A program made the translations under genes and the position numbers. The notes under the pieces were generated by a model, which worked only from the letters and a program-made list of their open reading frames with translations, did no database searches and was not told the DNA's origin. A stretch of DNA of 31,119 nucleotides from the IMG/VR virus record IMGVR_UViG_3300046727_000022, positions 1-31,119 of that record; one strand, written 5' to 3'. Origin of the DNA: a virus. This document shows, one piece after another, positions 1,159 through 31,119 of the stretch (within the stretch, counting starts at the first letter, position 1; each line of letters opens with the position of its first letter).

Positions 1159-1483
1159 GGAATACCAACAAAGTACAGCTAAAACTGCGGTATATACCGG
1201 ACGACAATCTGTAGGCGGATTAGTGTACACTACGCTTGGATTAACTGGAGAATCGGGGGAGATAGCTAATAAAGTAAAGAAGATTTTAAGAGATAGCGAA
1301 GGTATTTTAACAGATGAAGTTAGACAAAAGCTTCTAGCAGAATCTGGAGACTGCCTATGGTATTTATCTCAATTTATTACTGAACTTGGTGGTAGCTTAG
1401 AAGAGGTAGCGATTGCTAACATAGCAAAGCTAACCAGTAGATTAGAACGTGGTGTAATACAAGGTAGTGGAGATAATCGTTAA
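1148..1483 (+). CDS. MazG nucleotide pyrophosphohydrolase (second)
   Basis: A 111-residue protein that starts with an excellent ribosome site (AAGGAGAATAATG). It carries TTLGLTGESGEIANKVKK and, after a 20-residue spacer, LAESGDCLWYLSQF: the ExxE...ExxD arrangement of canonical MazG domains (PF03819). Family members cleave NTPs or dNTPs to NMP and PPi on an acidic metal-binding four-helix scaffold, usually as dimers. It overlaps the upstream MazG-like gene, and its stop shares one base with the reductase start (TAATG), so all three are likely translated from one message. Two MazG types side by side suggest distinct nucleotide substrates, but that is inference. Confidence 0.85.
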   Translation: MNFKEYQQSTAKTAVYTGRQSVGGLVYTTLGLTGESGEIANKVKKILRDSEGILTDEVRQKLLAESGDCLWYLSQFITELGGSLEEVAIANIAKLTSRLERGVIQGSGDNR

Positions 1484-7400: not shown

Positions 7401-9426
7401 CTAATGCTATTGGATCAAAATCTGCTAATTCATGTCCGTTTAATATACCTTCTAAAGTAGTATCAAATACACGCTTTCTAGAAAACGGGGTGTATGTAGA
7501 AAAGCTACTCGATTGAGATGCCGGTCTAAATTTTCTAACGGTATCATTTTCAGGATTCTTAAATATACGAGTAATATAATTATTAGCGCCTTCAGTTAAA
7601 ACACCTGCTTCTCTAGCTTGCTCTAAAGTTTTATTAAAATGATCTGATACTTCTTTTGCAAAATCAACATGTTTGTCTTCTAACTTATCTGGATCAAGTT
7701 GATTAAGAAGTTTATCGACATAAGCTTTAGGTTTGTTTTTTAACTCTTGTTTGTCTATTGCTTCTCTAAAAGAATCTTCAATTTTTTTATCACTAAAATC
7801 TATTTTTCTTCTATCACCTAAAGCCGTATCCTTAGTAACTTTATATTCTCTACTAAGACTATCCCAGATTTTATTAGCTTCTGGAAATGTTAATACATCC
7901 GTGACTAGCCCTGTCTTTCCTTTAGATTTTAAGAAGTCTATAGCCTGACGGTGCATTTCTGTGCCTATTCCCTTTTGACGCATATCTTCGGGAACATTTA
8001 TCCAGCTAGCTTCCATATGTCCAGGTTTTACATCATATGCAGATGTCAATGCAAACTCACCGGCATCTTCACCATTATGTGTAAATCTAAATAGATAATC
8101 ACCCTTTGCATCGGGATGAACGGACATTTCTAATTTAGGACGTTCTTTTTCTACGTATTTTCTTTCGTCTCGCCCAGCAGACTCGGCTACTGCATCATGC
8201 CATCTAGCTAAACTATTCTTATCCGATCCAGATTCATAGTAAAATCTGGCACGCTGCATATCATCGTCTGACAACTCTTTGTGACGACTACGCATATCCT
8301 TTTCCCATTGTTTATGGGTTTCAGACGTAATTATATTATCTCTGTCATGCTTTTCAAACTCTTTGATTAGTTTAATATTTTCGTCTGAAGGTTTTACACG
8401 AAGTCCTAGTTTAGCAGCAGCATCAGGCATCAACTCGCCAGCGTGTGTATATGCCTGATGCGCTCCTAACCCAGCAAACAAACCTGTGCCCGCAGCTTCT
8501 ACTGCAAGCTTTTTAGCCGTTTCGTAATCACCTTCTTTAATAGCGTCAAATACTCTTGGAGAAATTATAGCAGCGGCATACGCATTTTGAACAGTAAATC
8601 CTGCATCAATAGCAGATTGAGTCCATGTAGCCACATTCTCTGCCATAGCGGTATCTACGCCTATTTGTCGTAACACAGACGATCCTGCTCTTCTTATAAC
8701 TCCTGTAGATGTTAGACTCTCTGGGGTTAATCCAGCATTTTTAATTACGTCTAATCCTTCTGATATTTTTTGAACATCGAAACCTTTAGAGGCTAACCCC
8801 TGCCAAACTAAATCAGAATCGTGTCCTGCATGTATTAGTTTAGAGGCCAATCCAGAACCTTCTACAACAGCATCTATATCTTTAGCAGCCCATCCAGCAG
8901 CTTTGAGCGCAGCTACGCCACCGGCATCAAGAAGTGCCCCTGATCCGAAAGTACCTATTGTAAGAGCTAGTTGTAGCGGAGATGTTAGCCCAGAAAGTAA
9001 ACTAAAGAAACCTTGACCTAATCCACCCCAACTATGAACATCCGCACCAAACCAGTTCTTAGCAGTTGTTTCATCAAATAGTGGTTCGTTAACGGCGTTC
9101 CATGCTTTTTTATACCACGGAGCGTTAGCATCAACAGCTTCTTTATTTGTTTGAACTACTTTTTGAGGTTCTAGTTCGTTCAGAGATTGGTCAGATGGTT
9201 TATCTAAAAAACCAAAATCTCCTGCGGATGTAGATGCAGGAGCGGATTTATCTAATCCTGAAATCCCTAAATTTCCATTTTCCGGAATTGTTTGCGTTGG
9301 CGTAGATGGCTTATCAAAGGTTTGCTCTTGAGCAGGTTTGCTATCTAGAAACGATAGCCCTCCCTGCTCTTGAGTAGATGTCTTTTGAGCTGAATCTAGG
9401 AATCCAAAATTGTCCGTTTGCGGCAC
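4447..9426 (-). CDS. Giant polyvalent/internal virion protein with GNAT-like and HExxH peptidase-like domains
   Basis: A 1659-residue protein, last gene of the structural operon. Start is GTG with GAGGA 8 nt upstream. Residues 7-75 hold four FGFLD-like repeats in low-complexity sequence. Residues 130-340 are Ala/Gly-rich, helical and possibly membrane-active. About 432-540 looks like a GNAT acyltransferase: substrate strands, then NVPEDMRQKGIGTEMHRQAI with the RxxGxG acetyl-CoA loop (483-488). About 640-700 contains FSRKRVFDTTLEGILNG, recalling motifs in phage/plasmid polyvalent proteins. Residues 920-1240 are helical. A Pro-rich linker (1400-1440) leads to a C-terminal domain with VGHEITH (HExxH at 1531-1535), a zinc-metallopeptidase signature. 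Such proteins are carried in virions and injected with DNA. Enzyme activities are inferred from motifs only. Confidence 0.85.
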   Translation of the reverse strand: MPQTDNFGFLDSAQKTSTQEQGGLSFLDSKPAQEQTFDKPSTPTQTIPENGNLGISGLDKSAPASTSAGDFGFLDKPSDQSLNELEPQKVVQTNKEAVDANAPWYKKAWNAVNEPLFDETTAKNWFGADVHSWGGLGQGFFSLLSGLTSPLQLALTIGTFGSGALLDAGGVAALKAAGWAAKDIDAVVEGSGLASKLIHAGHDSDLVWQGLASKGFDVQKISEGLDVIKNAGLTPESLTSTGVIRRAGSSVLRQIGVDTAMAENVATWTQSAIDAGFTVQNAYAAAIISPRVFDAIKEGDYETAKKLAVEAAGTGLFAGLGAHQAYTHAGELMPDAAAKLGLRVKPSDENIKLIKEFEKHDRDNIITSETHKQWEKDMRSRHKELSDDDMQRARFYYESGSDKNSLARWHDAVAESAGRDERKYVEKERPKLEMSVHPDAKGDYLFRFTHNGEDAGEFALTSAYDVKPGHMEASWINVPEDMRQKGIGTEMHRQAIDFLKSKGKTGLVTDVLTFPEANKIWDSLSREYKVTKDTALGDRRKIDFSDKKIEDSFREAIDKQELKNKPKAYVDKLLNQLDPDKLEDKHVDFAKEVSDHFNKTLEQAREAGVLTEGANNYITRIFKNPENDTVRKFRPASQSSSFSTYTPFSRKRVFDTTLEGILNGHELADFDPIALAAHNGNEFGRIINARNTLENLRSKSVRASDGRPMVALSGTGHAMIDEDGNRIGTAVQPGRAQSLRIADKVVEGLKNNIIKVAEYSPEEKIKIPFTGEIDKFNNPDHIKLFEDWKNSKDPLWKSGYSSDNYIRERLATEEVKPGKLIKSEVTELDKLFKEGRIVKFGEDSKTGKQLYAWTTYDYRDVNNSSFKGWASRVQDSEGNPIYIESDLKAHPEAHEYLNRRFGNQESLVSKVPGVKSLLKAGQEAKGILLFGSPFHIIQEGLRAVMTGISPFGHTEFDANNPMHRLAASKGVWEGKEYKGATAFQEGLAGHSKLISKIPGLAQIQDWQQRFLFDRYIPSLKLRAFENLYNRYQKAYPDWAADKAANVAAADTANRFGGIPYKRMGRAAGTMDATRLIALAPDWLESEIRFMGSLFGEGGKITRRDTAKMALALWGAARVLNALVDNGNMHNEAPFGVAHKDEDGRTKIYSVRTMPTDMLHAVSDPAGFVRGRVAPLVRTGIQTYTGRDEFGRKLPENGLWINALKNIAPIGLQSAAKKITGEDPGITGVDSAIKAVGGTVFPYRTEAQKLAAKIAADHSEQGAVDQDKLRRHQAVLRLEDQIRNGQAPVSTLHQLIDEGQLHSNEARTIEKNVKETTGMDPDLARLYSHASRAPMSDMIKIWEASTNHEKALLAPLLLKKKQAYIKKAIKDMSPQERTSDSTYQWIRSMFPQDSPFGGSNINNIIPGGTNSTPNKTKPSLYGSQKSTSSDDEPPPPVIGGKTIDSIDKAFDLFKGRKLNADELAKAAPIFEKLLDLGQVKIHELPQQLIDYLSEGKGNYAFQNEERKNDIAITSNKKYLSTAPISKEAIVGHEITHVYQSQGGESSMQFANKFGEDRYGIPNAKNMTALYNNGIKFKDFTPEQQGSIVGTYIHLINSLDGKDKSKDEDKKSYIHALQPYIDDLRLSQSYKPSMQLESAVKDAKDVIEDVRRGVFKKLGIF
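9272..9289 (-). repeat. 18-nt element, copy 2 (inside coding sequence)
   Basis: A perfect AATTCCGGAAAATGGAAA on the - strand, unlike the others inside a gene: it encodes part of IPENGNL in the low-complexity N-terminal region of the giant protein. Here it is translated, so selection on DNA or RNA sequence is less certain. Confidence 0.7.
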
Positions 9427-9443: not shown

Positions 9444-11135
9444 TTATTTCTGTGAGAAGGAATTTGCAGGTTGAGATTCTTCTTCAACATTAACTCCTTG
9501 GTCTTTTAATTTCTTTATAACTTCTTCTGGAGATTTACCTATTTCAGTTGCCATAGATTGTACAGCAGTAAATGGAATGACTGTTTTCATTGCTTTTGCT
9601 AGCGCAACTCTTTGAGAGTTAGTAGTTAGTAAAGGTATTTTATTAATATTATCCCAAGATAAAGGCTGACCACCGGATTTAGCATTATTGTCATAAACAT
9701 TAGCAGTAGTGGAATCCATCTGAACTCCCGCTCTAGATACTCCTCCAGTTGTAGTAGAAGCCGGTAATTTAGCTTGTAATCCTAATATCTTATTTAGTGC
9801 ATTATGATACATTTCAAGCGTTTTATACTGATCTTTACCTTGATCTGTATTTCCATAGTTAGGATCACTCTTTAACTGATCTCCAAACTCTTTTCTTTGT
9901 TCGTCAGCAGCTTTTATAAGAGTATCAGTTATAGGTTTCAATTTCTTTATTTGATCCGGAGTCATTTTACTTACATCGCCACTGGCCGTTGTAAACAATC
10001 TCCAGGCTTCTTCGGCGTCTTTCTTATCTTTAGCTTCGGTATATATTTTAGAAGTTTCAGCTTTAAGATGAGAGATTTGTGCTTTACTAAAATCTATAGC
10101 GGATTGCTCTTTCTGAGTATCTAAATCTTTCTTATCTTTCTCGTACTTATCTTCTCTCATTTTCTTTTCTTGCTGAGTGAAAGTTAAATAGTGTTGAACA
10201 TCTAATTGTTTATCTTTAGTGAGATGATTCCATAAATCGCTACCGTAAACTTTATCTAATCCAACAGCTTTCCATGCCTTAACATTAGCATCTGTAACAT
10301 TAACTTGCGTATTAGGATCAACCTTCATAGCGGATAAAGTATTTATATGTTGCGGATTTCCATCTTTATCTAATACTATTTTAGTTCCAGTAGGCTGCCA
10401 TAAAAGATGAGTTGCATCTGGATTACTTTTTAGTATATCATTTACTTCGGTTTCTGGCACATCTCTAAAAGTATAAGGAACTCCAGCGGCTTCTAAAGCT
10501 GAAAACTGTGCTTTTCCGTTTGCCGCCATCTGTTCATGATGAGTATAATCTTCAAACTGAGAATTTTTAATCTCACGAAGAGTTTGAGCATTATGCATAG
10601 CTATCTGTGCTCGCATTAAATCTATTTGAGTAGTGGCGTGTTTTTCTTCTGTATTTGCACGTCTAGCTTCTAGATTCTGTTTAAAATCAGCTCTAGCGGC
10701 ATCTTGTTTAGCTTTATCTTGATTTTGCTTATTTTGTATCTCAGCCGCGCCGCCTTGTACAGCTCCGCCTAAGAAATCCTTAGCGCCAGACTTTTGAGCA
10801 GCGGCACCACCAAGTATGACACCTGATATAATATTACGCCATATTTGTCCTGGTTTAGTGGGAACATCTTGTTCTACTGTTTTTCCGGTAGCTGGATCAA
10901 CTGTATACGAACGTTCATTCCCAAAAAGACTTTGGACTATTTTACCTAATCCGTAGTGGTGGCCTAAATCGGCCATTGCTTCGGGAGGGGGTCCGGCTGG
11001 TGCCCCAGAAACAGGCGCATTCGTGTTTGGCTGGCTTATAGGAAGCTTTTGAAGACCGTTTGGGTCTGAACCTATATTCGGTGGTGTCGAAGGCTCCTGA
11101 GAGCCGCCAAGAGGATTTTGATTATTTTGATCCAT
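9444..11135 (-). CDS. Coiled-coil internal virion-type protein, 563 residues
   Basis: I do not recognise a named family. The N-terminal 55 residues are Pro/Asn/Gly-rich. About 95-135 is a Gly/Ala-rich stretch (ISGVILGGAAAQ, FLGGAVQGGAAE). From about 135 to 215 there is a long charged helix (KQNLEARRANTEEKHATTQI), and a second Lys/Glu-rich coiled coil lies at about 325-380. The C-terminus is again disordered. This layout, together with its place directly upstream of the giant polyvalent protein, resembles ejection or internal virion proteins of short-tailed phages. AGGA precedes ATG 11135. It starts back-to-back with a + strand gene only 20 bp away. Confidence 0.75.
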   Translation of the reverse strand: MDQNNQNPLGGSQEPSTPPNIGSDPNGLQKLPISQPNTNAPVSGAPAGPPPEAMADLGHHYGLGKIVQSLFGNERSYTVDPATGKTVEQDVPTKPGQIWRNIISGVILGGAAAQKSGAKDFLGGAVQGGAAEIQNKQNQDKAKQDAARADFKQNLEARRANTEEKHATTQIDLMRAQIAMHNAQTLREIKNSQFEDYTHHEQMAANGKAQFSALEAAGVPYTFRDVPETEVNDILKSNPDATHLLWQPTGTKIVLDKDGNPQHINTLSAMKVDPNTQVNVTDANVKAWKAVGLDKVYGSDLWNHLTKDKQLDVQHYLTFTQQEKKMREDKYEKDKKDLDTQKEQSAIDFSKAQISHLKAETSKIYTEAKDKKDAEEAWRLFTTASGDVSKMTPDQIKKLKPITDTLIKAADEQRKEFGDQLKSDPNYGNTDQGKDQYKTLEMYHNALNKILGLQAKLPASTTTGGVSRAGVQMDSTTANVYDNNAKSGGQPLSWDNINKIPLLTTNSQRVALAKAMKTVIPFTAVQSMATEIGKSPEEVIKKLKDQGVNVEEESQPANSFSQK

Positions 11136-11155
11136 ATTATTCCTAAGAGGTTAAA
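11136..11155. promoter_or_regulatory. 20-bp divergent ribosome-binding spacer
   Basis: Only 20 bp separate the ATG of the - strand coiled-coil gene (11135) and the ATG of the + strand 70-residue gene (11156). The core CCTAAGAGG supplies AGAGG to the + gene and, from its other strand, TTAGGA to the - gene. Any promoter for either gene must lie within the opposite coding sequence. Confidence 0.5.
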
Positions 11156-11368
11156 ATGAAAACTGAAAAGACGTATTGGAAAGTAGAAACAGGAGAAGAG
11201 TTTAACTCTTCTACTATTATACAATATTATGACGAAGGAATGAGATTTGGGAAGTTTTTAAGAGCCAATGATAAATATGCTTGGATAAAAATATTAGATA
11301 AAGAGATTAAGATTCCAATTGATAAGTTGGAGATGTACCTTCCAGAAAAAAGGAAAGAAGAGTTTTAG
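11156..11368 (+). CDS. Small hypothetical protein on the opposite strand, 70 residues
   Basis: Reads MKTEKTYWKVETGEEFNSST at the start, with later strands YAWIKILDKEIKIPIDKLEM; it looks like a compact beta-rich, charged protein. AGAGG sits 5 nt before ATG. It is one of only three + strand genes inside the structural block. Its last 62 bp overlap, tail to tail, the end of the - strand gene at 11307. No family recognised. It could be an independently expressed accessory gene; good protein-like composition and ribosome site support it, but no promoter was identified. Confidence 0.6.
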   Translation: MKTEKTYWKVETGEEFNSSTIIQYYDEGMRFGKFLRANDKYAWIKILDKEIKIPIDKLEMYLPEKRKEEF

Positions 11369-11723
11369 AAGTTATAGTGTCATCTTTTAATGCTCTTTTA
11401 ATAAAACTTACACAGTTATCTATAGCAGCTTTTTCACTAAATCCATACACTCTTAATAGATTCTCCAGATTATCTGTTGGCTTTAATCCGGCGCGAGATA
11501 ATCCTTTAAGTTTTAATTCACAATCAAAACAGGCTGCTTTTAATCCTGCGAGCATAGAACCAAATACACGAACTCCATCGCTATTAGTTAAATGTCTTCC
11601 AGGCTTGGCAAATGACTTTAACTTTAAAGGATTTCGTAACTGATAAGCCTCGCTGTCAGGCGAGTGGGTATTGTTGATTCTTGCTATGCTATCTACTATT
11701 GACTCTATGCGATTTACTGACAT
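11307..11723 (-). CDS. Conserved phage structural-cluster protein, 138 residues
   Basis: The product contains QLRNPLKLKSFAKPGRHLTN, then RVFGSMLAGLKAACFDCELK and a C-terminal FIKRALKDDTITSKTLLSFF. I know this LRNP.LLKSFA.PG.H / LENLLRVYG pattern from conserved uncharacterised proteins next to tail and internal virion genes of short-tailed phages. I chose ATG 11723 (MSVNRIES) because AAAGGA lies 6 nt upstream; an in-frame ATG at 11750 would overlap the preceding gene. The C-terminal 62 bp overlap the opposing + strand gene. Role unknown, probably virion-related. Confidence 0.75.
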   Translation of the reverse strand: MSVNRIESIVDSIARINNTHSPDSEAYQLRNPLKLKSFAKPGRHLTNSDGVRVFGSMLAGLKAACFDCELKLKGLSRAGLKPTDNLENLLRVYGFSEKAAIDNCVSFIKRALKDDTITSKTLLSFFLEGTSPTYQLES

Positions 11724-11733
11724 ATTTATCCTT

Positions 11734-12561
11734 TTATACCTGACTATCATCAGCAGCTAGAGGATCGCCTCCACCACCGCCGCCAACAAACGGAGGGGTA
11801 CCTCCATTATTATTACTACTACCGCCTAACCAACTTCCGAATTTACCACCTAATGCAGCACCGCCAGGACCGCCTAAGAATGCTCCTGCGGCTCCTCCAA
11901 CTAATCCGCCAATAGTTCCCCAAGGACTAGCAGCCCTCTTCTGATTATAAAGAGATGTAGCTATATCAAAAGTTCCTTTAGAAGCTTGAGTAGCAGCACT
12001 AGCATATCCTAGCGGATTATAAGCTTGGGCAGTAGATAGATCGCCACTTGTCGCTGCTAGGAAGTTCTGTCTACCCTGTTCATATCCGGCCTCAGTAACG
12101 CCTAACTGTTTTCCAGATTCAGATTCCGCAGCTCTACCTGCTAAATCAGCTTGTATACTTTCTTCTGCTCCAGAAGGCAATAAAGTATTTCCACCGCCAC
12201 GAGCTGCTAATTGTTCAGATAAGGCTTTCTTAGCTTGAGCATACGTTTGAGCAGTTCCTTCTGACGCTTGTGTTCGTAGTGCAGTTTCTTCTGCTTTAGA
12301 AAACCCAAACTGATTTATACCGGCTTGAACTATAGGGTCTAACGCATTATGTATAGAACCAAGTATAGCAGATTGATTTGTGAAAGCAGTATCATAGTTA
12401 GCAGTTAACGTCGATTGTAACGCTTTCATGCTTTCTAAGGCCGATGTTTGATCTGCGGTTGGACCGCCTTTAGCTAATTGAACAGGGCCATAATACAATC
12501 TAGTATTCTTAGATACTATATCTAAATTAGAATCCCATACTATACGAGTTGCAATTCTCAC
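11734..12561 (-). CDS. Virion-cluster protein with C-terminal glycine zipper
   Basis: A 275-residue protein with a Gln/Ala/Ser-rich helical body (KALQSTLTANYDTAF, QAKKALSEQLAARGG). It ends in a glycine-zipper segment (TIGGLVGGAAGAFLGGPGGA...GSWLGG, roughly 220-250) and a Gly-rich tail. Glycine zippers insert into or assemble at membranes, so a role in DNA ejection is plausible but inferred. Start is GTG, right after the upstream stop (TAAGTG), with GGAGC upstream, implying coupled translation. Confidence 0.75.
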   Translation of the reverse strand: MRIATRIVWDSNLDIVSKNTRLYYGPVQLAKGGPTADQTSALESMKALQSTLTANYDTAFTNQSAILGSIHNALDPIVQAGINQFGFSKAEETALRTQASEGTAQTYAQAKKALSEQLAARGGGNTLLPSGAEESIQADLAGRAAESESGKQLGVTEAGYEQGRQNFLAATSGDLSTAQAYNPLGYASAATQASKGTFDIATSLYNQKRAASPWGTIGGLVGGAAGAFLGGPGGAALGGKFGSWLGGSSNNNGGTPPFVGGGGGGDPLAADDSQV

Positions 12562-12975
12562 TTATTGCTCCTGTTCAGGCTCCAGATCACGTATTTTAGC
12601 CTTATATACCGTGTAAGGTAGCGGTTCGAAAATAGTAGCTTCAGCTATATTATTAACTGAATCATCTGTTCCTAAAAAATATATTTCTGACACACCTTGA
12701 ATATGCGCCTGTGATACTAAAAATTGAATAAATTCTTTAAAAGCTATAGCTGCTTCCGCATCGGTAGCTTCTGGATTTTTAGCTATAGTTTCTAACATAT
12801 ATGGCCTCTGAACAGGCATAAACGAAATTACATGTTTCTTATTATAGCTAGCTAGTGTAAACACTCCAGGTTGATAAGCTATTTCTGGATCAAAGCCAGG
12901 AACGTTTACCGACCAATTAAAAAACTTACTGCCTTCCGTGTTTCTCGCAGCGCGAACAAATACAGGATTACTCAT
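12562..12975 (-). CDS. Hypothetical virion-cluster protein, 137 residues
   Basis: Begins MSNPVFVRAARNTEGSKFFN after AAGGAAAATAATG, a clear ribosome site. The middle has an alpha-helical stretch (TDAEAAIAFKEFIQFLVSQA) and the end is acidic and Gln-rich. No family recognised. It is packed between nozzle-region and glycine-zipper genes with a 1-base gap or overlap on the downstream side, so it is probably a minor structural or assembly protein. Confidence 0.7.
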   Translation of the reverse strand: MSNPVFVRAARNTEGSKFFNWSVNVPGFDPEIAYQPGVFTLASYNKKHVISFMPVQRPYMLETIAKNPEATDAEAAIAFKEFIQFLVSQAHIQGVSEIYFLGTDDSVNNIAEATIFEPLPYTVYKAKIRDLEPEQEQ

Positions 12976-12984
12976 TATTTTCCT

Positions 12985-13290
12985 TTATATTATAGGTTGC
13001 CCAAAAGCTTTTTCTAAAGCTTGAAGAGCTAAATTTCGAATATACGTGTTTACATTTAATGTTTCTCTATTTCGAGTATACGCAGAATATGGAAAAAATA
13101 ATCTAGTATCCGCATCTGAAGTAAACTCAGCGGGTGGAAGTCCCCTTTGAGGAGCTATACTTCCTGGAATAGATAGAACGTTGTCTGCATAATATCCAGA
13201 AGTTTCATTTCTGTTACCTTTATAAAGAGGAACTTCTGGATATGAATTTTCTATATCTGGCGTTATGTTTCGTTCCCCTATATTAGGCAT
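12985..13290 (-). CDS. Hypothetical virion-cluster protein, 101 residues
   Basis: Begins MPNIGERNITPDIENSYPEV and ends in a helix (TYIRNLALQALEKAF). Its start overlaps the stop of the large nozzle-like gene by one base (TAATG), so it is probably translated by reinitiation. Mostly extended, Pro/Tyr/Asn-rich sequence, compatible with a small tail or neck component. No family recognised. Confidence 0.7.
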   Translation of the reverse strand: MPNIGERNITPDIENSYPEVPLYKGNRNETSGYYADNVLSIPGSIAPQRGLPPAEFTSDADTRLFFPYSAYTRNRETLNVNTYIRNLALQALEKAFGQPII

Positions 13291-16175
13291 TATTCCTCGT
13301 ATCTAAGCTTTCCAAATATAGAAAGAGTTAATAACTCATTTTTAAAAGCTTCGCTTGCCCAAGAAATTTTAACTTGTAAATGTCTACAAAGCTGCGGATT
13401 ATTTCCTTGTGATAAATCAAAACGCTTAGAGTATACAGTAGAACTTGGTTTGAGCCTTGCAGGGCTATCTACCGAATTAACTAAGTTTTCAAAAGTCCCG
13501 CTTATTTCTTCTAATAAAACACCGATATTTGGAATGCTTCCAACTTTTTGAAGTTCAACGTTTATACTAGAAACTTCTGCAATCTGACCCGGTTGTGCTA
13601 ATACTATACTACCGATAGAGGCAAAAGCAGAATACGAAACTCCGTTATCCGCAAATACTGTTAAATCTCTCATTAACACTGTTCCGTCAGATTGTCCTAT
13701 AAGTAAGTTATGAACACCTGGAGAAGTTTCTACTGAAACTACAGCAGTTGCGCCACCAACTATAAATGCTTTAGGACTCCATGCTGGACCACCCTCTGGA
13801 GGTTGATTCCAATTACATCTATACCAATTGGAAGTTCCATCTGCTATAAATACGGCTTTATCAGTTGTTCCGGCTATTAAAGATGCAACATACACATTAG
13901 CAGGGTTAAAAGTTGCCTGTAATGTATCTCCAATAGCAAATCCTATCTCTTGCGCCCCAGACGAATTCGCAGCAATAAACTGTTTATCTGAAGTATACAT
14001 AAACATATTACTACCCTGAACATCCAGTGCATTCCAAGATAATATACCTATACCTTCTTGATACATCATATCGTAAAAAGTAGCAGTGGTAGTTCCAACT
14101 ATAGCCCAAACATCATCTGTAGTAAACACTAATAATGAGTTTGATATAGGAACTAATTTCTTAATAGCTGAAGGTAGTACAAAAACATTACTAGGAGGAA
14201 ATGCCTCCGCACCATTTCCAAGATTTGTATCCGGCCCTCCAGAATAATACAGTATATTTCCTACTGAACCCCATACTCTGTTTAAGTGATATGTTAAATT
14301 TATTAATCCTGCTGGAGGAGGATTATTTGTAAAAGTAGGAGAAGATAAAAAGAAATTAAACAGATTCAAAGATGAATCAGGTGATGCATCTGTAATATTT
14401 GTACTAGTGTTAGGATATGGAGATGTCGGTAACTCAAAAAACGTACTTCCACCATCTTTAGTTCTAAATACTCTAATCTGGTTAACTTGAGGATCAGTGC
14501 TAGCTGTCAGCGTAACCGATACGTTTAATTTGTTAGTAAACACACCAGTACTAGCTGATGGTGGTGTAGGATTAGATACATGGGCACTATTAGAATTTCC
14601 ATATGCAAAAACATACGCATATCCGACAGTGGCGCTAAATGATCCGGCTGCTCCGCTTACTGCGATAACAGGGCCGCCTGTGCCGAATATAGTTATTCTG
14701 ACAAAATCTACAGACCAAATTCCGTTCGATGAGCCAGAATTTAATCCTTGAATAGATACTCCAAAACTGGCGCTATTTATATCCCCAGGAGAAAACGTAG
14801 TACCCCATAAGTCAGAACTTCCTCCAAGGGATATAAAATTATTTGATCCGAGTAACTGTATGCCAGTTTTAGCTACTCCGGATTGAGAACCATTTTTTAA
14901 TATTGAAACTGTTAGAGAAGTTCCTACTGGTTGGGAATTTCCTACTCCTTTTATTTCTACTAATATTCCACTTATAGTGTTAGCAGAAGATAGTGCAAAT
15001 CCAAAATTAGTTCCTTCAAGTAAATCGGTAAAAGAAGTGTTTCCTACTGGAACAGTATAATTTATTGTTATACTTATAAAATCTACTAAAGCAGTTACAT
15101 TTGTACCAAAAGCGTTATTATTACCGACTGCAACGCCAGCTTTTAGAAGTTGAACTACCGTATCAGTTGCTCCTCCAACTCCATTTCCTTGAACTTGAAG
15201 CTGCACACCAAACCCACTGTTGTTTATGTCTGCAGGAACCCACGAAGTTCCCCATAAATCTGCAATACTCCCATATGCTAAAGATATAGCTCCTACACCT
15301 ATATAAAATATAGAAACAATAATTCCGTTAATAGTAGCATTATTAGGTATTCCAAAGTTATACGCTGATCCCTGTAAAAATTGAGAATCGTTAAATCCTG
15401 GAACTGTTGTAGATGCGGCAGAACCGTCTAAAGATTCTATATTTGCGGGATTTAACCATATAGCTCCTGCACCTGTAGTAATAGCGTTACTAGGTGCATT
15501 AGGGCCAGCAGTAAAAGTTCCGGGATTAGGTGGAGTTAGTGTTATAGTAGCAAAACTACCGTCATTAGCAGTTATATTTCCAGGATTAGCCCATATTGTT
15601 CCAGGAACATTAACATCTGACCCGGTACCGCAGCCATTAGGTCCAACAGAACTAGAGACATTGCTCATAGCAATCCCCCAATTTCTCGTGGTACCCGTTC
15701 CATTCCACGCCTGTAAATCTGCTCCATCGCCTATATAAAGAGTTGTACCAACTCCTTGAAAATAGCTTTGTCCAGAACCATTTGCTTTAGTCAATATAGA
15801 AGTTTTAGCAGTCGGACTAAGGGTATAGACATTTGTTGCGGTATCTGCTATAATGGTTATCGGATTGATGGCATTGGAAGGCGGATGAAAAGAATAAAAG
15901 GTAATTGGGGAACTTCCAAGATTCGCAGTAGAAAATACAGAAGTTCCCGGTCTTCTTTGTAACGTTCCTATATTACTTAACTCAACGTTAAGTCCATCAA
16001 TGAGCATGTCAGGACGCCCGCCAAGATAGCGGTACTCCGATCTAGAACTATACGGACTAAATGGAGAACGTTGAGTAACAAGCCCAGAGAACCACGATAA
16101 CGTTGTTATCGGAGTGTACTTTGGTGTCCTTGTCGGCGCGCTTCCGGCTTGTGCTAGTATTGTAGGAACGCTCAT
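13290..16175 (-). CDS. Tail nozzle-like (tail tubular B-like) protein with inserted repeat domains, 961 residues
   Basis: The N-terminal region reads YLGGRPDMLIDGLNVELSNI then GTLQRRPGTSVFS. The D-G-x-N-V-x...L-x-x-RPGT pattern is typical of tail nozzle/tubular B-type proteins that build the distal tail of short-tailed phages. The rest is beta-rich (Ser, Thr, Gly, Asn), ending CRHLQVKISWASEAFKNELL. Residues about 235-375 and 380-498 are two copies of one domain (NFGxx...ADLWGTxxxPxDINxxxFGV...VDFxxITI), with a partial extra copy of its start at 190-212. The gene has weak Shine-Dalgarno and begins 9 bp after the 46-residue gene, so it may be translationally coupled to it. The nozzle assignment is by pattern and position. 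Confidence 0.75.
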   Translation of the reverse strand: MSVPTILAQAGSAPTRTPKYTPITTLSWFSGLVTQRSPFSPYSSRSEYRYLGGRPDMLIDGLNVELSNIGTLQRRPGTSVFSTANLGSSPITFYSFHPPSNAINPITIIADTATNVYTLSPTAKTSILTKANGSGQSYFQGVGTTLYIGDGADLQAWNGTGTTRNWGIAMSNVSSSVGPNGCGTGSDVNVPGTIWANPGNITANDGSFATITLTPPNPGTFTAGPNAPSNAITTGAGAIWLNPANIESLDGSAASTTVPGFNDSQFLQGSAYNFGIPNNATINGIIVSIFYIGVGAISLAYGSIADLWGTSWVPADINNSGFGVQLQVQGNGVGGATDTVVQLLKAGVAVGNNNAFGTNVTALVDFISITINYTVPVGNTSFTDLLEGTNFGFALSSANTISGILVEIKGVGNSQPVGTSLTVSILKNGSQSGVAKTGIQLLGSNNFISLGGSSDLWGTTFSPGDINSASFGVSIQGLNSGSSNGIWSVDFVRITIFGTGGPVIAVSGAAGSFSATVGYAYVFAYGNSNSAHVSNPTPPSASTGVFTNKLNVSVTLTASTDPQVNQIRVFRTKDGGSTFFELPTSPYPNTSTNITDASPDSSLNLFNFFLSSPTFTNNPPPAGLINLTYHLNRVWGSVGNILYYSGGPDTNLGNGAEAFPPSNVFVLPSAIKKLVPISNSLLVFTTDDVWAIVGTTTATFYDMMYQEGIGILSWNALDVQGSNMFMYTSDKQFIAANSSGAQEIGFAIGDTLQATFNPANVYVASLIAGTTDKAVFIADGTSNWYRCNWNQPPEGGPAWSPKAFIVGGATAVVSVETSPGVHNLLIGQSDGTVLMRDLTVFADNGVSYSAFASIGSIVLAQPGQIAEVSSINVELQKVGSIPNIGVLLEEISGTFENLVNSVDSPARLKPSSTVYSKRFDLSQGNNPQLCRHLQVKISWASEAFKNELLTLSIFGKLRYEE

Positions 16176-16184
16176 ATGATATAA

Positions 16185-16325
16185 TTATTTAGATGGAGGG
16201 CAAGGTCCGCTATCGCCGGGAAGACAACCTGGTCTAGGTGCTCCATCTGGAGAAATAGTAGTTGTTTTAATAGTACCGAAAGTTAATATAGTTAAAAAAA
16301 TAAGAGAAAAGGCTAAACGTTTCAA
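16185..16325 (-). CDS. 46-residue signal-peptide protein with TTG start
   Basis: A gene too short for most callers. It reads (M)KRLAFSLIFLTILTFGTIK, a typical Lys/Arg plus hydrophobic signal or anchor segment. The tail is Pro/Gly-rich with two cysteines (PGCLPGDSGPCPPSK) and the stop is TAA 16185-16187. AAGGA is 7 nt before the TTG codon. No lipobox is clear, so the product may be periplasmic or membrane-anchored rather than a lipoprotein. The TTG shares its first base pair with the ATG of the divergent + gene. It lies 9 bp before the nozzle-like gene. A spanin-like or assembly role would be speculation. Confidence 0.6.
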   Translation of the reverse strand: MKRLAFSLIFLTILTFGTIKTTTISPDGAPRPGCLPGDSGPCPPSK

Positions 16326-17026
16326 TGTATATTCCTTGGTATGAGTATTGTTTATGGCTTGCAGTTATAATTACAAAAGTTTTCTTATTCTATATATGTA
16401 AACCTATCAGAAGATTAGCTTTCCTGCGTATATTTATATTATATGGATTAGCGTATGAATTTATAACATTGTTAATATTTTTTAAATATCCTGTTATATA
16501 TTCACAATCTATATGGTTATTAGATTATATAAAATATTTTATATCTGCTATGCTAGCCGTACAACTAGCTACAATTAAAGAAAATAAAAATATATCTTTT
16601 TATTCTTTTCTTACTTTACTAACAATAATGTTTGGATTTGCCGCTAACGTTCAATTATCTTTTACAGAACCTTTATTACGTATGGCAAGGTTTATAGATG
16701 GGCTATGTATAGGAATCACATTATTCGTATTTTTCCAGAAAATGGAAAAACTATATAAAAATATAGCAATAGGATTATCTGGAATACTTGCTAGTGATTT
16801 TATATGTAATACTATGCAAGCTATCGACCACTGGAATCACTGGAGCGTGGTCCGACCCTTGTACGCTGTTTCTTATCTAATCTCTGTTCTTGTATTGGTA
16901 TTCCTGATTCGCTTCGGGTTATCAGATAATTTTCAATCCTCTCAAGTCGAGGAATTATCTCTTCCCGCTGTCGAGCTAGTTCCTGCTCAACACTGTTTGC
17001 TTTCTCCAGAGCTTTATCTGCCCTAG
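16325..17026 (+). CDS. Polytopic membrane protein, about 7 helices
   Basis: A 233-residue very hydrophobic protein. Likely helices lie near residues 7-26, 33-53, 64-81, 93-110, 122-137, 143-160 and 177-197, with basic loops between the first helices (KPIRRLAFLR). No domain recognised. It runs against the structural operon. At its 3' end, 206 bp (16821-17026) are antisense to a - strand gene; this covers its last helix and a tail rich in Glu, Leu and Pro. AAAAGG lies about 11 nt before ATG. An AT-rich composition higher than its neighbours and the opposite strand suggest an independent accessory gene, for example one altering the host envelope; that role is a guess. Confidence 0.65.
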   Translation: MYIPWYEYCLWLAVIITKVFLFYICKPIRRLAFLRIFILYGLAYEFITLLIFFKYPVIYSQSIWLLDYIKYFISAMLAVQLATIKENKNISFYSFLTLLTIMFGFAANVQLSFTEPLLRMARFIDGLCIGITLFVFFQKMEKLYKNIAIGLSGILASDFICNTMQAIDHWNHWSVVRPLYAVSYLISVLVLVFLIRFGLSDNFQSSQVEELSLPAVELVPAQHCLLSPELYLP

Positions 17027-17144
17027 TTCCGACATTATCTACCCATATGACGGCGCTAAATAAAATTGTAAGTATAGTAAGAACTGATACTAGCGTACCG
17101 ATTCTTGTGTTAGCTAGAGTCCATGTTTTTTCCGTAGCGTTCAT
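16821..17144 (-). CDS. Single-helix membrane protein with coiled coil (holin- or tail-associated candidate)
   Basis: A 107-residue protein: short N-terminus (MNATEKTWTLANTRIG), one transmembrane helix at about 15-35 (TLVSVLTILTILFSAVIWV), then a charged coiled coil (RADKALEKANSVEQELARQR) and a basic tail. This resembles small phage membrane proteins found near tail genes and is compatible with a holin-like or virion role, without proof. GAAAG lies about 7 nt before ATG. The C-terminal 206 bp overlap the end of the + strand membrane protein in antisense; both frames look protein-like. Confidence 0.65.
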   Translation of the reverse strand: MNATEKTWTLANTRIGTLVSVLTILTILFSAVIWVDNVGTRADKALEKANSVEQELARQREEIIPRLERIENYLITRSESGIPIQEQRLDKKQRTRVGPRSSDSSGR

Positions 17145-21306: not shown

Positions 21307-21324
21307 TTTCCATTTTCCGGAATT
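21307..21324 (-). repeat. 18-nt element, copy 3
   Basis: A perfect AATTCCGGAAAATGGAAA on the - strand bridging the stop codon of the AT-hook/zinc protein and the ribosome site of adaptor 1. The final GGAAA feeds directly into the GGAAAGG Shine-Dalgarno. Confidence 0.7.
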
Positions 21325-22036
21325 ATGCTCTACGAGCGAAAGAAGGCTTCTCTACAACTAGTTCAAATCCAGCAGATCGGCCAAAAGGCTCTGGATGTTC
21401 TTTTCTAGCCCACTCTTCTACGGCTTGAGCGCTTACCATTCGATCTCCAGATTCAGAAGCGGTGTTATAACTTCTCTTGCTTCTCCAGAATCTGTAATCT
21501 GGGTCATTTGGCCAAAACTGTCTATTACAAGCAGTACATATTCCAATCCAAAAATGAGAATGAACTTCATGCCATATAATAGCAGAATCATTACTTTCTC
21601 TACTTCCTGGATAATTACCCGCCATATGAGAACAATTAGCTTGGCCATTTATAATATTTAGCCGTTTAGTTTCTTCTTGTATTCGAGATTGCTCTCTCTG
21701 CCTACGCTCATTTTCTAGATCAGCTTCTGATTTATACGGCTTACGAACATCTTTTAAAGCTTGAGTAAACTGAGAAATTAAATCGACCGTAGATACAGCT
21801 TCTTGAGAAGGAGTTTTAACTCCAATTTGATTTGTTTTAACAAATTCTAAAATACCTTTAAGTTCTGCTAATTCCGATTTACTAATAGTTACAAACTCTT
21901 CAGAGTTATATAACGGCTGTAAATCTCCTGTACCTTGAGTATTATAATCTGTAGACTCTTCTATAGCAATTTTTTGTGCAGGTGGGCGACCCGGTCTACG
22001 TTTTTCCCCGCCTAGTATATCTTTTTCTTCTGACAT
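21323..22036 (-). CDS. Zinc-motif protein with AT-hook-like N-terminus
   Basis: A 237-residue protein. Residues 12-19 (KRRPGRPP) match the AT-hook minor-groove-binding core. The middle is helical and charged (ENERRQREQSRIQEETKRL). From 135 comes a putative metal site: C135-x-H137, W155-H156, then WIGICTACNRQFWPNDPDY with C167-x2-C170. The same C-terminal module occurs in the gene at 27719, so the two are paralogues. AAGGAG is 8 nt before ATG. Placement between head and neck genes suggests a role in head assembly or DNA handling; function unknown. Confidence 0.7.
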   Translation of the reverse strand: MSEEKDILGGEKRRPGRPPAQKIAIEESTDYNTQGTGDLQPLYNSEEFVTISKSELAELKGILEFVKTNQIGVKTPSQEAVSTVDLISQFTQALKDVRKPYKSEADLENERRQREQSRIQEETKRLNIINGQANCSHMAGNYPGSRESNDSAIIWHEVHSHFWIGICTACNRQFWPNDPDYRFWRSKRSYNTASESGDRMVSAQAVEEWARKEHPEPFGRSAGFELVVEKPSFARRA

Positions 22037-23493: not shown

Positions 23494-24159
23494 TTAACTA
23501 TTTAAACTGGATTGCTTACCAGTTCCTAAAACATTTTGTGTAGTGGCTTTTTTGTCTGGCTTAAAGATAGGCTGAACTGATAGCCCACTATCCGTAATAT
23601 AAACTGCTATAACTCCTCCTGGTTTTACGTGAGCATCTTTACTTCCGAATGCTTCCCCTACTTCATGGATTAAAGAACTGTGAACTACGAGTAAACCTGG
23701 AACTCCTAAACTATTTCCGACCTCAACAGCTTCATAAAATAGTGGACGAATTCTCGATCTAAATTCTTCAAGAGAACTTCCTCCAGGAACTGTTAGCATA
23801 GGATTATCTACATATTTTTGAAGTTTAGCAATGTTTTCTTTATCTTTTGGCTTTCCACCAAAATCCCCTATATTCCACGGCGCTAAAAGACCATTTGAAA
23901 TAGGTTTAAGAAACTCTATATTTTCTTCTAAGTTTGTTTTTTTAGAAAGATATATTATATCCGCAGTAATTAACGCTCTTTGTTTCTCAGAAGAAACTAT
24001 AAAAGATAACTCAATAGGATTAAAATAATAAGCTAATTCATTAGCATCTCTAAAACCGTTTTTATCTAGCGGAGGATCTAAATTTCCTCTAAAAATATTC
24101 TGTTCGTTTAAAACAGTTCTACCGTGTCTGGCTACATATAAACAAATTTGAGGCTGCAT
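23494..24159 (-). CDS. Histidine phosphatase superfamily protein (phosphoglycerate mutase-like)
   Basis: A 221-residue protein with the full branch-1 signature: LYVARHGRTVLNEQ (R11, H12 phospho-acceptor, R14), SSEKQRALITADII (R61), GGSSLEEFRSRI at 127-138, and LLVVHSSLIHEV with the second catalytic H160. The length matches stand-alone enzymes. Family members dephosphorylate sugar phosphates, nucleotides or proteins through a phosphohistidine. All catalytic residues visible to me are intact. It lies in the middle of the head-protein operon, with GGAGGATACATG as ribosome site, so it is expressed late, with virion proteins. The substrate cannot be deduced. The last 25 residues are Lys/Ser/Gln-rich and may be disordered. 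Confidence 0.88.
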   Translation of the reverse strand: MQPQICLYVARHGRTVLNEQNIFRGNLDPPLDKNGFRDANELAYYFNPIELSFIVSSEKQRALITADIIYLSKKTNLEENIEFLKPISNGLLAPWNIGDFGGKPKDKENIAKLQKYVDNPMLTVPGGSSLEEFRSRIRPLFYEAVEVGNSLGVPGLLVVHSSLIHEVGEAFGSKDAHVKPGGVIAVYITDSGLSVQPIFKPDKKATTQNVLGTGKQSSLNS

Positions 24160-27718: not shown

Positions 27719-28123
27719 TTAAAAACATGTGTTAAAATTTATATCAAAATTATAATCACTATTAAGATCGTTAAATTGACTCGCTATTTCTTTCTGTACT
27801 TCTTTAGAATTCCATTCTTCTTCTGTAATAGAAATCACCTGTCCAGATTCTGATCGTGTGCTATAACTTACTTTATTGAACCAATATTTATAGTCAGAAT
27901 CTTCCGGCCAAAACTGTCTATAGCACTCTTGGCAAATACCAATCCAAACTCCGGTATTAAGTTTGTGCCACACTATACAAGTATCAGCTTCTTTAAATGC
28001 AGGATATATTTTTGATAAAGAACCCGCTAAATGTGGGCAAGCATCTTGCAAGATTTTTATACTTTGTTTTCGTTCAATTTCTACTAACTGACACTGTCGT
28101 TTTAGTAATTCTTTATCTGTCAT
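27719..28123 (-). CDS. Zinc-motif protein, paralogue of the AT-hook protein
   Basis: A 134-residue protein containing C29-x-H31, W52-H53 and GVWIGICQECYRQFWPEDSD with C64-x2-C67, followed by YSTRSESGQ. The AT-hook protein at 21323 has the same series (CSH, WH, WIGICTAC.RQFWP.D.DY, SESG). It lacks the AT-hook half. I start at ATG 28123, preceded by CCGCGAAAGGG; an ATG at 28162 would extend into the upstream gene. Likely a small zinc-binding helper of head assembly; unproven. Confidence 0.7.
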   Translation of the reverse strand: MTDKELLKRQCQLVEIERKQSIKILQDACPHLAGSLSKIYPAFKEADTCIVWHKLNTGVWIGICQECYRQFWPEDSDYKYWFNKVSYSTRSESGQVISITEEEWNSKEVQKEIASQFNDLNSDYNFDINFNTCF

Positions 28124-28126
28124 ATA

Positions 28127-28137
28127 CCCTTTCGCGG
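28127..28137 (-). promoter_or_regulatory. Shared leader CCGCGAAAGGG with ribosome site
   Basis: Second copy of the 11-mer that also precedes the zinc-ribbon gene at 22761. Here it overlaps the space just after the preceding stop and ends 3 nt before ATG 28123. Confidence 0.5.
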
Positions 28138-28139
28138 TA

Positions 28140-28556
28140 TTATTCAGGGCCAGCAGGAACACCTTTAGTAATTTGATATCCTTCTTTTACTATATTAGGT
28201 ACAGTTCTTGAGGCTTCTATATCAGACTGTATTTCAGCGTTTAATCTTTTAAAAATATTTGCGCTGGCGTATGCTACGGCATGTCTGGCGGCTACTTCAT
28301 CTTTATTGCCAGTTGGCTCTGTGCTAAACAATACTATAGCATCTTCTTCCATATACTTGCGAAGTTTTTCTATAATTATAGCGTATCCAGAAGAATTGAC
28401 AACAGATAATAGTTCTCTTCCACTATGCCATTTATACGCTAACTGCTTCTCTTCATCGGTCACCCCGGTAAAAAGATCAGAATTAAGTTGTGCTTCTTTA
28501 AACCGGGATAACTCTACTATTTCAAATATTTTTTCTAAATAACTTGTATCACTCAT
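28140..28556 (-). CDS. Hypothetical head-region protein, 138 residues
   Basis: Begins MSDTSYLEKIFEIVELSRFK and is mainly helical and acidic (FKEAQLNSDLFTGVTDEEKQ; SANIFKRLNAEIQSDIEASR). The start shares a base with the portal stop (TAATG), so it is translationally coupled to the portal gene. No family recognised. Its position right after the portal suggests a head-assembly partner. Confidence 0.65.
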   Translation of the reverse strand: MSDTSYLEKIFEIVELSRFKEAQLNSDLFTGVTDEEKQLAYKWHSGRELLSVVNSSGYAIIIEKLRKYMEEDAIVLFSTEPTGNKDEVAARHAVAYASANIFKRLNAEIQSDIEASRTVPNIVKEGYQITKGVPAGPE

Positions 28557-31119
28557 TAGCTACCGAATCCTTGTGTATTAGGGTTCCCGCCTAATGTTTC
28601 TGGTGTTTCTGAAACTATAAGAGCATGTCTTAATACTTCTCTACCCGCTCTAGCTTCGTTTTCAGATTGTATCAAATCAAGTTTATTGTTGTGTCTAACT
28701 TGCTCTTGTTGCGCCATCATCTGACCTTTAGCTTGTGCCTGAGCAGCGGGAGTATTAGCTTGCGCTCTTTGCTTTTCTTCAGGAGTCATATCGAGTATCC
28801 AGTCAGATTTTGTCTTCCAACCAGAGACTTCTAACATACTGGCGAATAATGCGTTAAAATCAACTTTCTTGTTTTGCATTGCTAAATGCTGTAATGTTGG
28901 GTCGTTTGTCAGTAACTGAGTTATAATCGGAAGAGTAGAAGCCATTTGTTTTCTAGCTTGCATCTTACTTCCAGCCAGCACCGAGAACTTAACACCTGCA
29001 TTAAGAAGTTCTATTAAATCTCCGCCTTGAGAGAAATATTCATGTTCTAATTCTTCATCAAGTATATAATGTATAGTTTCTTTTGGTAACAAAGCTCTAT
29101 TCATTTCATGAACTCTGTATAGAAAAGGAATAAACACATTAGTAACGAACTTCTCTACAAAATCTTGTGGTCTAGAGTCTGCACCGGCTCCGAGTAAATT
29201 AGCGCCGCTAGCTGATCTAGCCATATTAGAATGTGCGGCGTTACCCGCTATACCTTGGGCAGTTACTTCATTTGCTCCGCTAGTAAGTTCTACTCTAGCT
29301 TGAGACATTGTTATATGTTGAGACGCTTCAGGAACTGGATCGAGTCTTTTCAACGGTTCAAATTTTCCATCTGCCTCGATGTTTACTATTTTACCAGGAG
29401 ACATGCGAATACTTTGAGACTGCTGACCTTTACCAAGAACTCTTACATATGTTCCGGAAAGATTAATAGATGCGTTATCTAACCAAGTATCAGTAATACC
29501 TTTTTGAAGACGCTGTTCAGCGCCAACAGTATTGTGGGTAATTATAAACCTATCTGTTACATATAAATGGTTTTCGACATCAACCATAATACACTGGCAA
29601 GATTTTATCCCGACTAATTCTACAAACGAAATTCCTCTAGAAACAGGGTATTTAGTTCTTGGTTTAAATAAATCTTTCTTTCTCGTCAATTTAAATGGAT
29701 TAAAACTATTAAAAGCAATAGTTAATTTATACGCTCTTCGACCCTCTAATTTTTCACCGTTGTATTCATATTTAGGAATATAGTTATATTCAGTAGCCTG
29801 TCCACCAAGAGATTCGACTAAGAATCGAACGTCATCGCAAAGCTGTTTAGACACACTTGTATACTGAGTTGTTCCGTCAGAACAGCTACCATCTGTATCT
29901 AATAGTCCTGCTAATACTTCTTTTCTTTGATCTATCGACCCAAACTTATATACATCGGGTATAAACTTATCTTCAGAACCTTTTCCCCACAGACCTAATT
30001 GTGTTAATTCTCTACGTATAGTATTAGTTTGATTATTAGATATTATTCTATAATCATAGTTTCCGCTATACTTTAATTCCATATTTTTAGGAAGTTTAGA
30101 AGAAAAAATATTTAACAGTTCTTTATCAGCACTACTTATACAAGGAGTTTCATATTTTATAGTTCCATCACCAAGTAGCGCACCTATAATATACGGGTCT
30201 AACGGTTGACTCTGTTCTTTAAACTGTACCGGTTCAACAACCGGAATAAAAAACCTAGAGTTGCCATAGGCATCAACAAGTTTATTTTTAATACTTTGTA
30301 ATTCAACTACTTTAGATTTCCATCCATTATATTTACCAGCAGGAGTCTGAACTTCCCACAAGTGTTCATCGGTACATTCTGTACTAGACCCATCAGTAAA
30401 AGTTACTTTAAATACTTCTTTTTCACCTTGAGGAAACACACCAGTAACCTTATGAGGTTTACCATCGGAACCAATTACTTCATCTCCAACAGACATATCA
30501 CCCATCAATTTCCAGCCAGAAGGAGTAAGAATCTTAGCATCTAACGGTTGTGCTTTGGCAAGACCCATACTCCAAAAAGCTTCTGGAACATCCCACCATC
30601 CAACAGATAAAAACGGAATCTTACCATAAGGGTTTTTCTGATTACATATGACTAATTTCTTTTGAATAACTACTGTAACAGTCTCATTATCCCAACGCTC
30701 CAAAACTTCTAAAGGTTGATTTAGTATATCTGCGGTAGTTGGAATATATCTTGGCTCTGATCTAGCATCATATAACGGATTTCTAGCAGTAACTTCATTA
30801 CCAGCCATTTCAGGCTGCTCAATTGGAGGAACAAACCAACTTATAACTTCTTGTTGGGAAGGAATATTATATCCAGGAGTTTCTTTTAGTTTCTCTAAAT
30901 CTTTATATGTTAAATATAATCTATGAACAACATATTTAGCTTTTTGTATATCAGGTACGCTTAATCCTGGATCAACTAAAACATATCTTAAATTAGTAAT
31001 GTTTTCGAAAAAGGGACGATCTATATATTCTTCGTAAGTTACTTCTTCTAAATCTTCGTCATTCTGGAGATCAAAAGATTTTGGCTTTCCTATATTAGAA
31101 AGAGGATCAGGTATAGAGA
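28556..31119 (-). CDS. Portal protein, intein-containing, N-terminus outside window
   Basis: The frame stays open to the right edge, so the true start is not visible. An ATG at 30808 lies inside the protein, not at its start: 103 further codons upstream (ending VISWFVPPIEQPE) are in frame. Excluding the intein, visible host sequence is about 512 residues. The junction joins MGLAK to TVGAEQRLQKGITDTWLDNA, matching the portal motif G(I/L)A(K/R)xxGxxQR. Later come SQARVELTSGANEVTAQGIA and a Gln-rich helical C-terminus. Portal proteins form the dodecameric DNA channel at one capsid vertex. Downstream head genes agree with this assignment. Confidence 0.85.
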   Translation of the reverse strand, partial: SIPDPLSNIGKPKSFDLQNDEDLEEVTYEEYIDRPFFENITNLRYVLVDPGLSVPDIQKAKYVVHRLYLTYKDLEKLKETPGYNIPSQQEVISWFVPPIEQPEMAGNEVTARNPLYDARSEPRYIPTTADILNQPLEVLERWDNETVTVVIQKKLVICNQKNPYGKIPFLSVGWWDVPEAFWSMGLAKAQPLDAKILTPSGWKLMGDMSVGDEVIGSDGKPHKVTGVFPQGEKEVFKVTFTDGSSTECTDEHLWEVQTPAGKYNGWKSKVVELQSIKNKLVDAYGNSRFFIPVVEPVQFKEQSQPLDPYIIGALLGDGTIKYETPCISSADKELLNIFSSKLPKNMELKYSGNYDYRIISNNQTNTIRRELTQLGLWGKGSEDKFIPDVYKFGSIDQRKEVLAGLLDTDGSCSDGTTQYTSVSKQLCDDVRFLVESLGGQATEYNYIPKYEYNGEKLEGRRAYKLTIAFNSFNPFKLTRKKDLFKPRTKYPVSRGISFVELVGIKSCQCIMVDVENHLYVTDRFIITHNTVGAEQRLQKGITDTWLDNASINLSGTYVRVLGKGQQSQSIRMSPGKIVNIEADGKFEPLKRLDPVPEASQHITMSQARVELTSGANEVTAQGIAGNAAHSNMARSASGANLLGAGADSRPQDFVEKFVTNVFIPFLYRVHEMNRALLPKETIHYILDEELEHEYFSQGGDLIELLNAGVKFSVLAGSKMQARKQMASTLPIITQLLTNDPTLQHLAMQNKKVDFNALFASMLEVSGWKTKSDWILDMTPEEKQRAQANTPAAQAQAKGQMMAQQEQVRHNNKLDLIQSENEARAGREVLRHALIVSETPETLGGNPNTQGFGS
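29531..30553 (-). other. Intein with LAGLIDADG homing endonuclease in the portal gene
   Basis: 341 residues, in frame. Block A is AQPLDAKILTPSGWKLMGDM; block B is TDEH (TxxH). Endonuclease blocks are YIIGALLGDG and VLAGLLDTDG, the paired LAGLIDADG motifs. Block F lies around CIMVDVENHLYVTD and block G is FIITHN, followed by Thr as the +1 residue. Removing it restores GLAK-TVGAEQR, which aligns without gaps to portal consensus. Aligning block A to standard inteins puts Ala at position 1, instead of Cys or Ser; a Gln1 reading would leave one extra residue in the portal. The endonuclease would spread the element by cutting intein-less portal genes. Confidence 0.9.

Follow-up and report, generated by a model that had tools for sequence, protein, structure and literature searches.

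How does an intein with alanine as its first residue and threonine after its last one splice, and how did it come to lie in the portal gene of a phage? The questions arise from a stretch of viral DNA of 31,119 nucleotides (IMG/VR record IMGVR_UViG_3300046727_000022, positions 1 to 31,119; hereafter the window), in which an open frame of 853 residues on the minus strand (28556-31117) codes for a portal protein together with an insert of 341 residues, the 5' end of the frame lying beyond the right-hand edge of the window. We conclude, with a probability of about 0.88, that the insert is a mobile class 3 intein which homes between portal alleles, and that the portal line of this intein derives from one at the P-loop of SNF2 helicases.

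Boundaries of the insert and its host gene

The insert extends from Ala1 to His340-Asn341 and is followed by Thr+1 (Table 1). Its junctions were located with the portal of L001 (IMG/VR 3300015078_000001), which is 87% identical to the window portal and carries no insert. Across the junction, marked here by a slash, the spliced window portal ...EAFWSMGLAK/TVGAEQRL... aligns without a gap with EAFWSLGLAK/TIGAEQRL of L001. Moreover, 39 related portal loci are empty at the same site, which reads [K or R]/[T, V, I or L]-[I or V]-G-x-EQ. The earlier note on this DNA had claimed a complete intein inside the portal gene with Ala1/Thr+1 junctions rather than Gln1, and had suggested an alignment with intein-less portals of related phages; this alignment upholds the GLAK/T junction, and the intein is real with exactly the boundaries of Table 1. 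That the insert is an ordinary portal domain is ruled out by the 39 intein-less portals.

A junction shifted by one residue, making Gln2 the first residue of a Gln1 intein, would be compatible with the glutamine at the second position and with the several first residues that class 3 inteins accept. However, it would add one residue to the portal compared with the 39 empty sites, and an identical boundary is seen in P-loop insertions, in which K/T needs restoring. In a structural model that includes six extein residues on each side, residue 7 (Ala1) is aligned on residue 1 of the solved class 3 DnaB inteins, and residue 347 (Asn341) lies at their end. Because the structural alignment starts at Ala1, in agreement with the empty site of L001, we prefer Ala1 and regard the shifted junction as hardly credible.

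Assignment of the host gene relies on profile matches. The whole window protein matches Pfam SU10_portal (PF23899) at 1.6e-7 over residues 533-805, and phrog_332 (head-tail adaptor) covers both extein halves, the N-terminal part to profile position 280 and the C-terminal part from 312. Searched singly, the halves yield weak phrog_332 matches (0.0016 and 0.0039) and no match in Pfam; the portals of close relatives match better, as at L036 (SU10_portal 2.3e-14, phrog portal 5.9e-12). With matches on both sides of the insert, the extein is classified as a SU10-type portal.

Table 1. Features of the intein and the interrupted portal gene, in window positions
Feature	Position	Strand	Evidence
Intein assigned to class 3, 341 residues (Ala1 to Asn341), with embedded LAGLIDADG endonuclease	29531-30553	-	Empty site of L001, PHROGs, Pfam, WCT triplet, AlphaFold model, PDB matches
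Ala1, non-nucleophilic first residue of the intein	30551-30553	-	Empty-site alignment, family alignment, structural register
Block B, His64 (B:10) to Trp66 (B:12)	30356-30364	-	Both invariant, 109/109
First LAGLIDADG motif PYIIGALLGDG, residues 120-130	30164-30196	-	Sequence; Gly128-Asp129-Gly130 invariant in 4-member alignment
Second LAGLIDADG motif VLAGLLDTDG, residues 213-222	29888-29917	-	Pfam LAGLIDADG_3, protein residues 397-453
Block F, Cys321 (F:4), putative initiating nucleophile	29591-29593	-	Invariant, 109/109; role per PMC3196547, PMC5222942
Block G, Thr339 (G:5), His340 (G:6), Asn341 (G:7)	29531-29539	-	Invariant, 109/109
Thr+1, C-extein nucleophile	29528-29530	-	Sequence; T 97/108, S 10/108 in relatives
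N-extein of SU10-like portal, 188 residues in the window (5' end outside), ending ...WSMGLAK	30554-31117	-	phrog_332 profile positions 172-280; 37 related loci
C-extein of the portal, 324 residues plus stop, starting Thr+1-Val-Gly-Ala-Glu-Gln	28556-29530	-	SU10_portal in the whole protein; phrog_332 from profile position 312

Other genes of the window were inspected in passing. Two predicted proteins on the minus strand (21323-22036 and 27719-28162) share, by eye, the segment CxHxAGxxP, WHxxxxxxWIGICxxCxRQFWPxDxDYxxW, and the pair resembles a duplicated zinc-ribbon-type protein. Among the structural genes, the product of 23494-24159 (-) starts with an RHGRT segment which, also by eye, recalls histidine phosphatases (phosphoglycerate-mutase-like), and the 1659-residue protein of 4447-9426 (-) contains a weak match to GNAT acetyltransferases at residues 443-507 (0.0016, under the Pfam cut-off). 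A ribonucleotide reductase (phrog_367, 2.6e-153) with the C-terminal end CGSGQCEI is encoded at 1483-3462 (+).

Splicing class, predicted fold and proposed mechanism

Class 3 inteins are without an N-terminal nucleophile and carry the triplet Trp B:12, Cys F:4 and Thr G:5 (PMC3196547), and their +1 residue is Ser or Thr in place of Cys (PMC5222942). The window intein has Trp66, Cys321 and Thr339 at the triplet positions, Thr at +1, and, by empty-site alignment and structural register, Ala instead of Ser, Cys or Thr at position 1. The triplet residues as well as His64, His340 and Asn341 are invariant in all 109 aligned inteins, a set gathered by sequence similarity with two search patterns containing the EHLW segment, so that the invariance of Trp66 partly reflects the collection. 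Since position 1 is Ala in 103 of the 109 and the +1 residue is Thr in 97 (Ser in 10 and Cys in 1; n = 108), Ala1 with Thr+1 is the norm of the family. Judged by these residues, the window intein belongs to the known class 3, with the commonest combination of terminal residues in its family. The proposal in the earlier note that Ala1 would force direct attack by the +1 residue, making the pairing with Thr unusual, is contradicted by the WCT triplet, with which Cys F:4 is expected to attack first.

Direct attack of Thr+1 on the N-terminal peptide bond would place the intein in class 2 (KlbA-like) as an unprecedented Ala1/Thr+1 case. Ala1 and Thr+1 are truly present, but class 2 is defined by a non-nucleophilic first residue, splicing motifs that in other respects resemble those of class 1, and no class 3 triplet, whereas all three signature residues are found here and are invariant across the family. 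We therefore consider a class 2 intein very improbable.

The predicted fold points to class 3 as well. AlphaFold modelled the C-terminal strand with low confidence from 5 sequences, whereas 72 sequences settled it (pLDDT 95.3, pTM 0.93). Comparison of the model with the PDB, for which Foldseek was also run, matched its splicing domain to the class 3 DnaB inteins 6bs8 (Z 19.4, rmsd 1.5 A) and 6riy (Z 19.2), the superpositions giving rmsd values of 1.5-1.9 A over 123-128 residues. At whole length the best PDB match is PI-SceI (Z 28). Both LAGLIDADG motifs described earlier were recovered: GALLGDG and GLLDTDG provide the two helices with acidic residues, the fold matches PI-SceI and I-DmoI, and Pfam LAGLIDADG_3 is matched at 4.7e-8. 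In profile searches, E-values down to 1.5e-41 were obtained against intein-containing terminases, well beyond chance. The endonuclease is presumably active.

In the class 3 route, Cys321, which Trp66 would hold and His64 and Thr339 would assist, would attack the Lys(-1)-Ala1 bond and take over the N-extein, which would then pass to Thr+1 by transesterification. Cyclisation of Asn341 would free the intein, and a final acyl shift would leave a continuous portal, ...GLAK-TVGAEQ.... If, on the other hand, the intein had decayed and lost the ability to splice, the phage would be left with a dead or altered portal, and a tailed phage requires its portal. In the window copy, moreover, the frame is open, no catalytic residue is missing and the fold is predicted with confidence, all of which argue against decay. 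Decay has a precedent in the Arthrobacter class 3 intein, a known pseudogene (PMC3196547). Some portal copies may likewise be decaying or mis-assembled: in the related intein L100 (record G006:C1:3985-5030, -), which is close to L050, the reading frame is interrupted around residue 268 of the intein, through decay or an assembly error. For the window copy we regard decay as improbable, and we infer splicing in the manner of class 3.

Proposed mobility among portals and a probable helicase origin

The portal at L036 (same contig as L047) contains an intein 60% identical to that of the window at the identical position, and further portal inteins occur at L050, L051 and L100. Portals with an intein are scattered over the portal tree instead of grouping in a single clade, and well-supported branches force three changes; the inteins, unlike the portals carrying them, are monophyletic. 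The nearest portal relative of the window is without the intein, and the 109-kb record of the closest phage (G001) gave no match to the intein alignment. The scatter of the portals together with the single intein clade is consistent with homing, in which the LAGLIDADG endonuclease would recognise the DNA flanking the insertion site and carry the intein between portal alleles. The conserved site and the scattered occurrence of the intein lend indirect support to cleavage of the intein-less allele. One old gain followed by many losses could also produce a scattered presence; nevertheless, homing between alleles explains it best.

The residue at +1 should bear on which portals can be invaded. It is Thr in 23 of the 39 empty portals, Val in 13, Ile in 2 and Leu in 1, or 18, 9, 1 and 1, respectively, among the 29 distinct sequences. 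Natural alleles in which Val, Ile or Leu replaces Thr+1 (11 of the 29 distinct portals; observed at L010, L013, L016, L021, L027, L030, L032, L034 and L044) should be closed to the intein, as no splicing is expected there.

The window record, searched with the intein as query, contains a single copy and no second one. In the phage of L051 (record G004), a segment of a 627-residue frame (L213, 88223-88576, +) gives a second match, a weak one, to the endonuclease part of the intein alignment (E 2.4e-9) and is possibly another homing element.

Most relatives of the intein occupy a different kind of site. Of the 108, 88 are preceded by GK, and most of the sites are P-loop-like (GxGK/T or GxGK/S), the position between Lys and Thr of the P-loop having been called the "classic" insertion site (PMC5050341). 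Among the matches listed, the relatives in phage records lie in helicases, terminases, PhoH and similar or unnamed genes, and none is labelled portal. A tree calculated from 59 inteins unites the four from portals in a single clade (support 100/98), with the L048 intein as their sister (98/90). L048 is inserted at DEMGLGK/TIQA in a SNF2 helicase (Pfam 6.9e-27). As the tree is unrooted, we rely on parsimony to read the move as one from P-loop to portal.

The portal site WSMGLAK/T resembles the SNF2 P-loop site MGLGK/T, and the likeness extends to the DNA. We built a 30-base profile from 19 insertion sites of the SNF2 type and used it to score 28 phage loci whose portals are empty. The actual portal site came first in 15 and among the top three in 20, out of 9,782 to 17,052 positions; these ranks are descriptive, as similar residues are encoded at the sites compared and the 19 helicase sites used for training include near relatives. 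Eight of the 28 empty sites rank below third, four of them below 40, and a broader profile (102 sites) does worse, placing the portal site first in 11. When longer sequences are scanned with the SNF2 profile, the portal site takes rank 1 of 189,438 (G007) and 12 of 217,714 (G001), and the joined site of the window scores above every 30-mer of the window.

We propose that the portal line arose once, by a jump from an intein at the SNF2-helicase site DEMGLGK/T, and that the jump was enabled by the likeness of the conserved portal codons for (S/G)MGLAK/T to the P-loop target. Alternatively, the likeness of the sites might be convergent and the portal line an independent, old branch of class 3; the placement is carried by one sister sequence, L048, and the deeper forks of the intein tree are weak. 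The 98/90 support for the portals with L048 and a site ranking far from chance speak against such a branch, which we judge unlikely. Hence a single move from the SNF2 P-loop into a non-ATPase portal by target mimicry, with subsequent spread by homing limited to portals that offer a +1 nucleophile, seems to us the probable history.

Comparison with known inteins

The intein shares with the class 3 inteins of mycobacteriophage Bethlehem DnaB, Msm DnaB-1, MchDnaB1 and Deinococcus Snf2 the lack of an N-terminal nucleophile, the WCT triplet and Ser or Thr at +1. The predicted fold is likewise that of class 3 (Z about 19 to 6bs8 and 6riy), and many inteins of the class are found at P-loop K/S or K/T junctions. 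It differs from them in its host, a portal and not an ATPase, and from the mini-inteins Msm DnaB-1 and MchDnaB1 also in being full-length, with an endonuclease. Among the SNF2-helicase P-loop inteins, the nearest, L048, is 50% identical to the window intein and its sister on the tree, and the target DNA looks alike; in contrast to the window intein, inteins of this group interrupt the ATP-binding loop of a helicase. PI-SceI, the yeast VMA intein, has the same arrangement of a Hint splicing domain with an inserted LAGLIDADG endonuclease, but is a class 1 intein (Cys1) in a eukaryotic host gene, with an identity of about 17%.

The earlier note had considered the portal host remarkable. A portal is indeed an uncommon host for an intein, but one with precedent, since portal inteins (PORT) are listed for cluster C1 mycobacteriophages (PMC5050341). 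These belong to a different phage group, and the comparison, made by host gene alone, yields the phage portal as the shared trait; in the phage Breeniome candidates examined for it, no portal gene was recognised.

The seemingly odd pairing of Ala1 with Thr+1 can thus be assigned to a known mechanism. In addition, the locus offers a testable case of an intein reaching a new gene family, in which a motif of a structural protein may have mimicked a P-loop target, and for which donor-type and recipient-type sites are both at hand.
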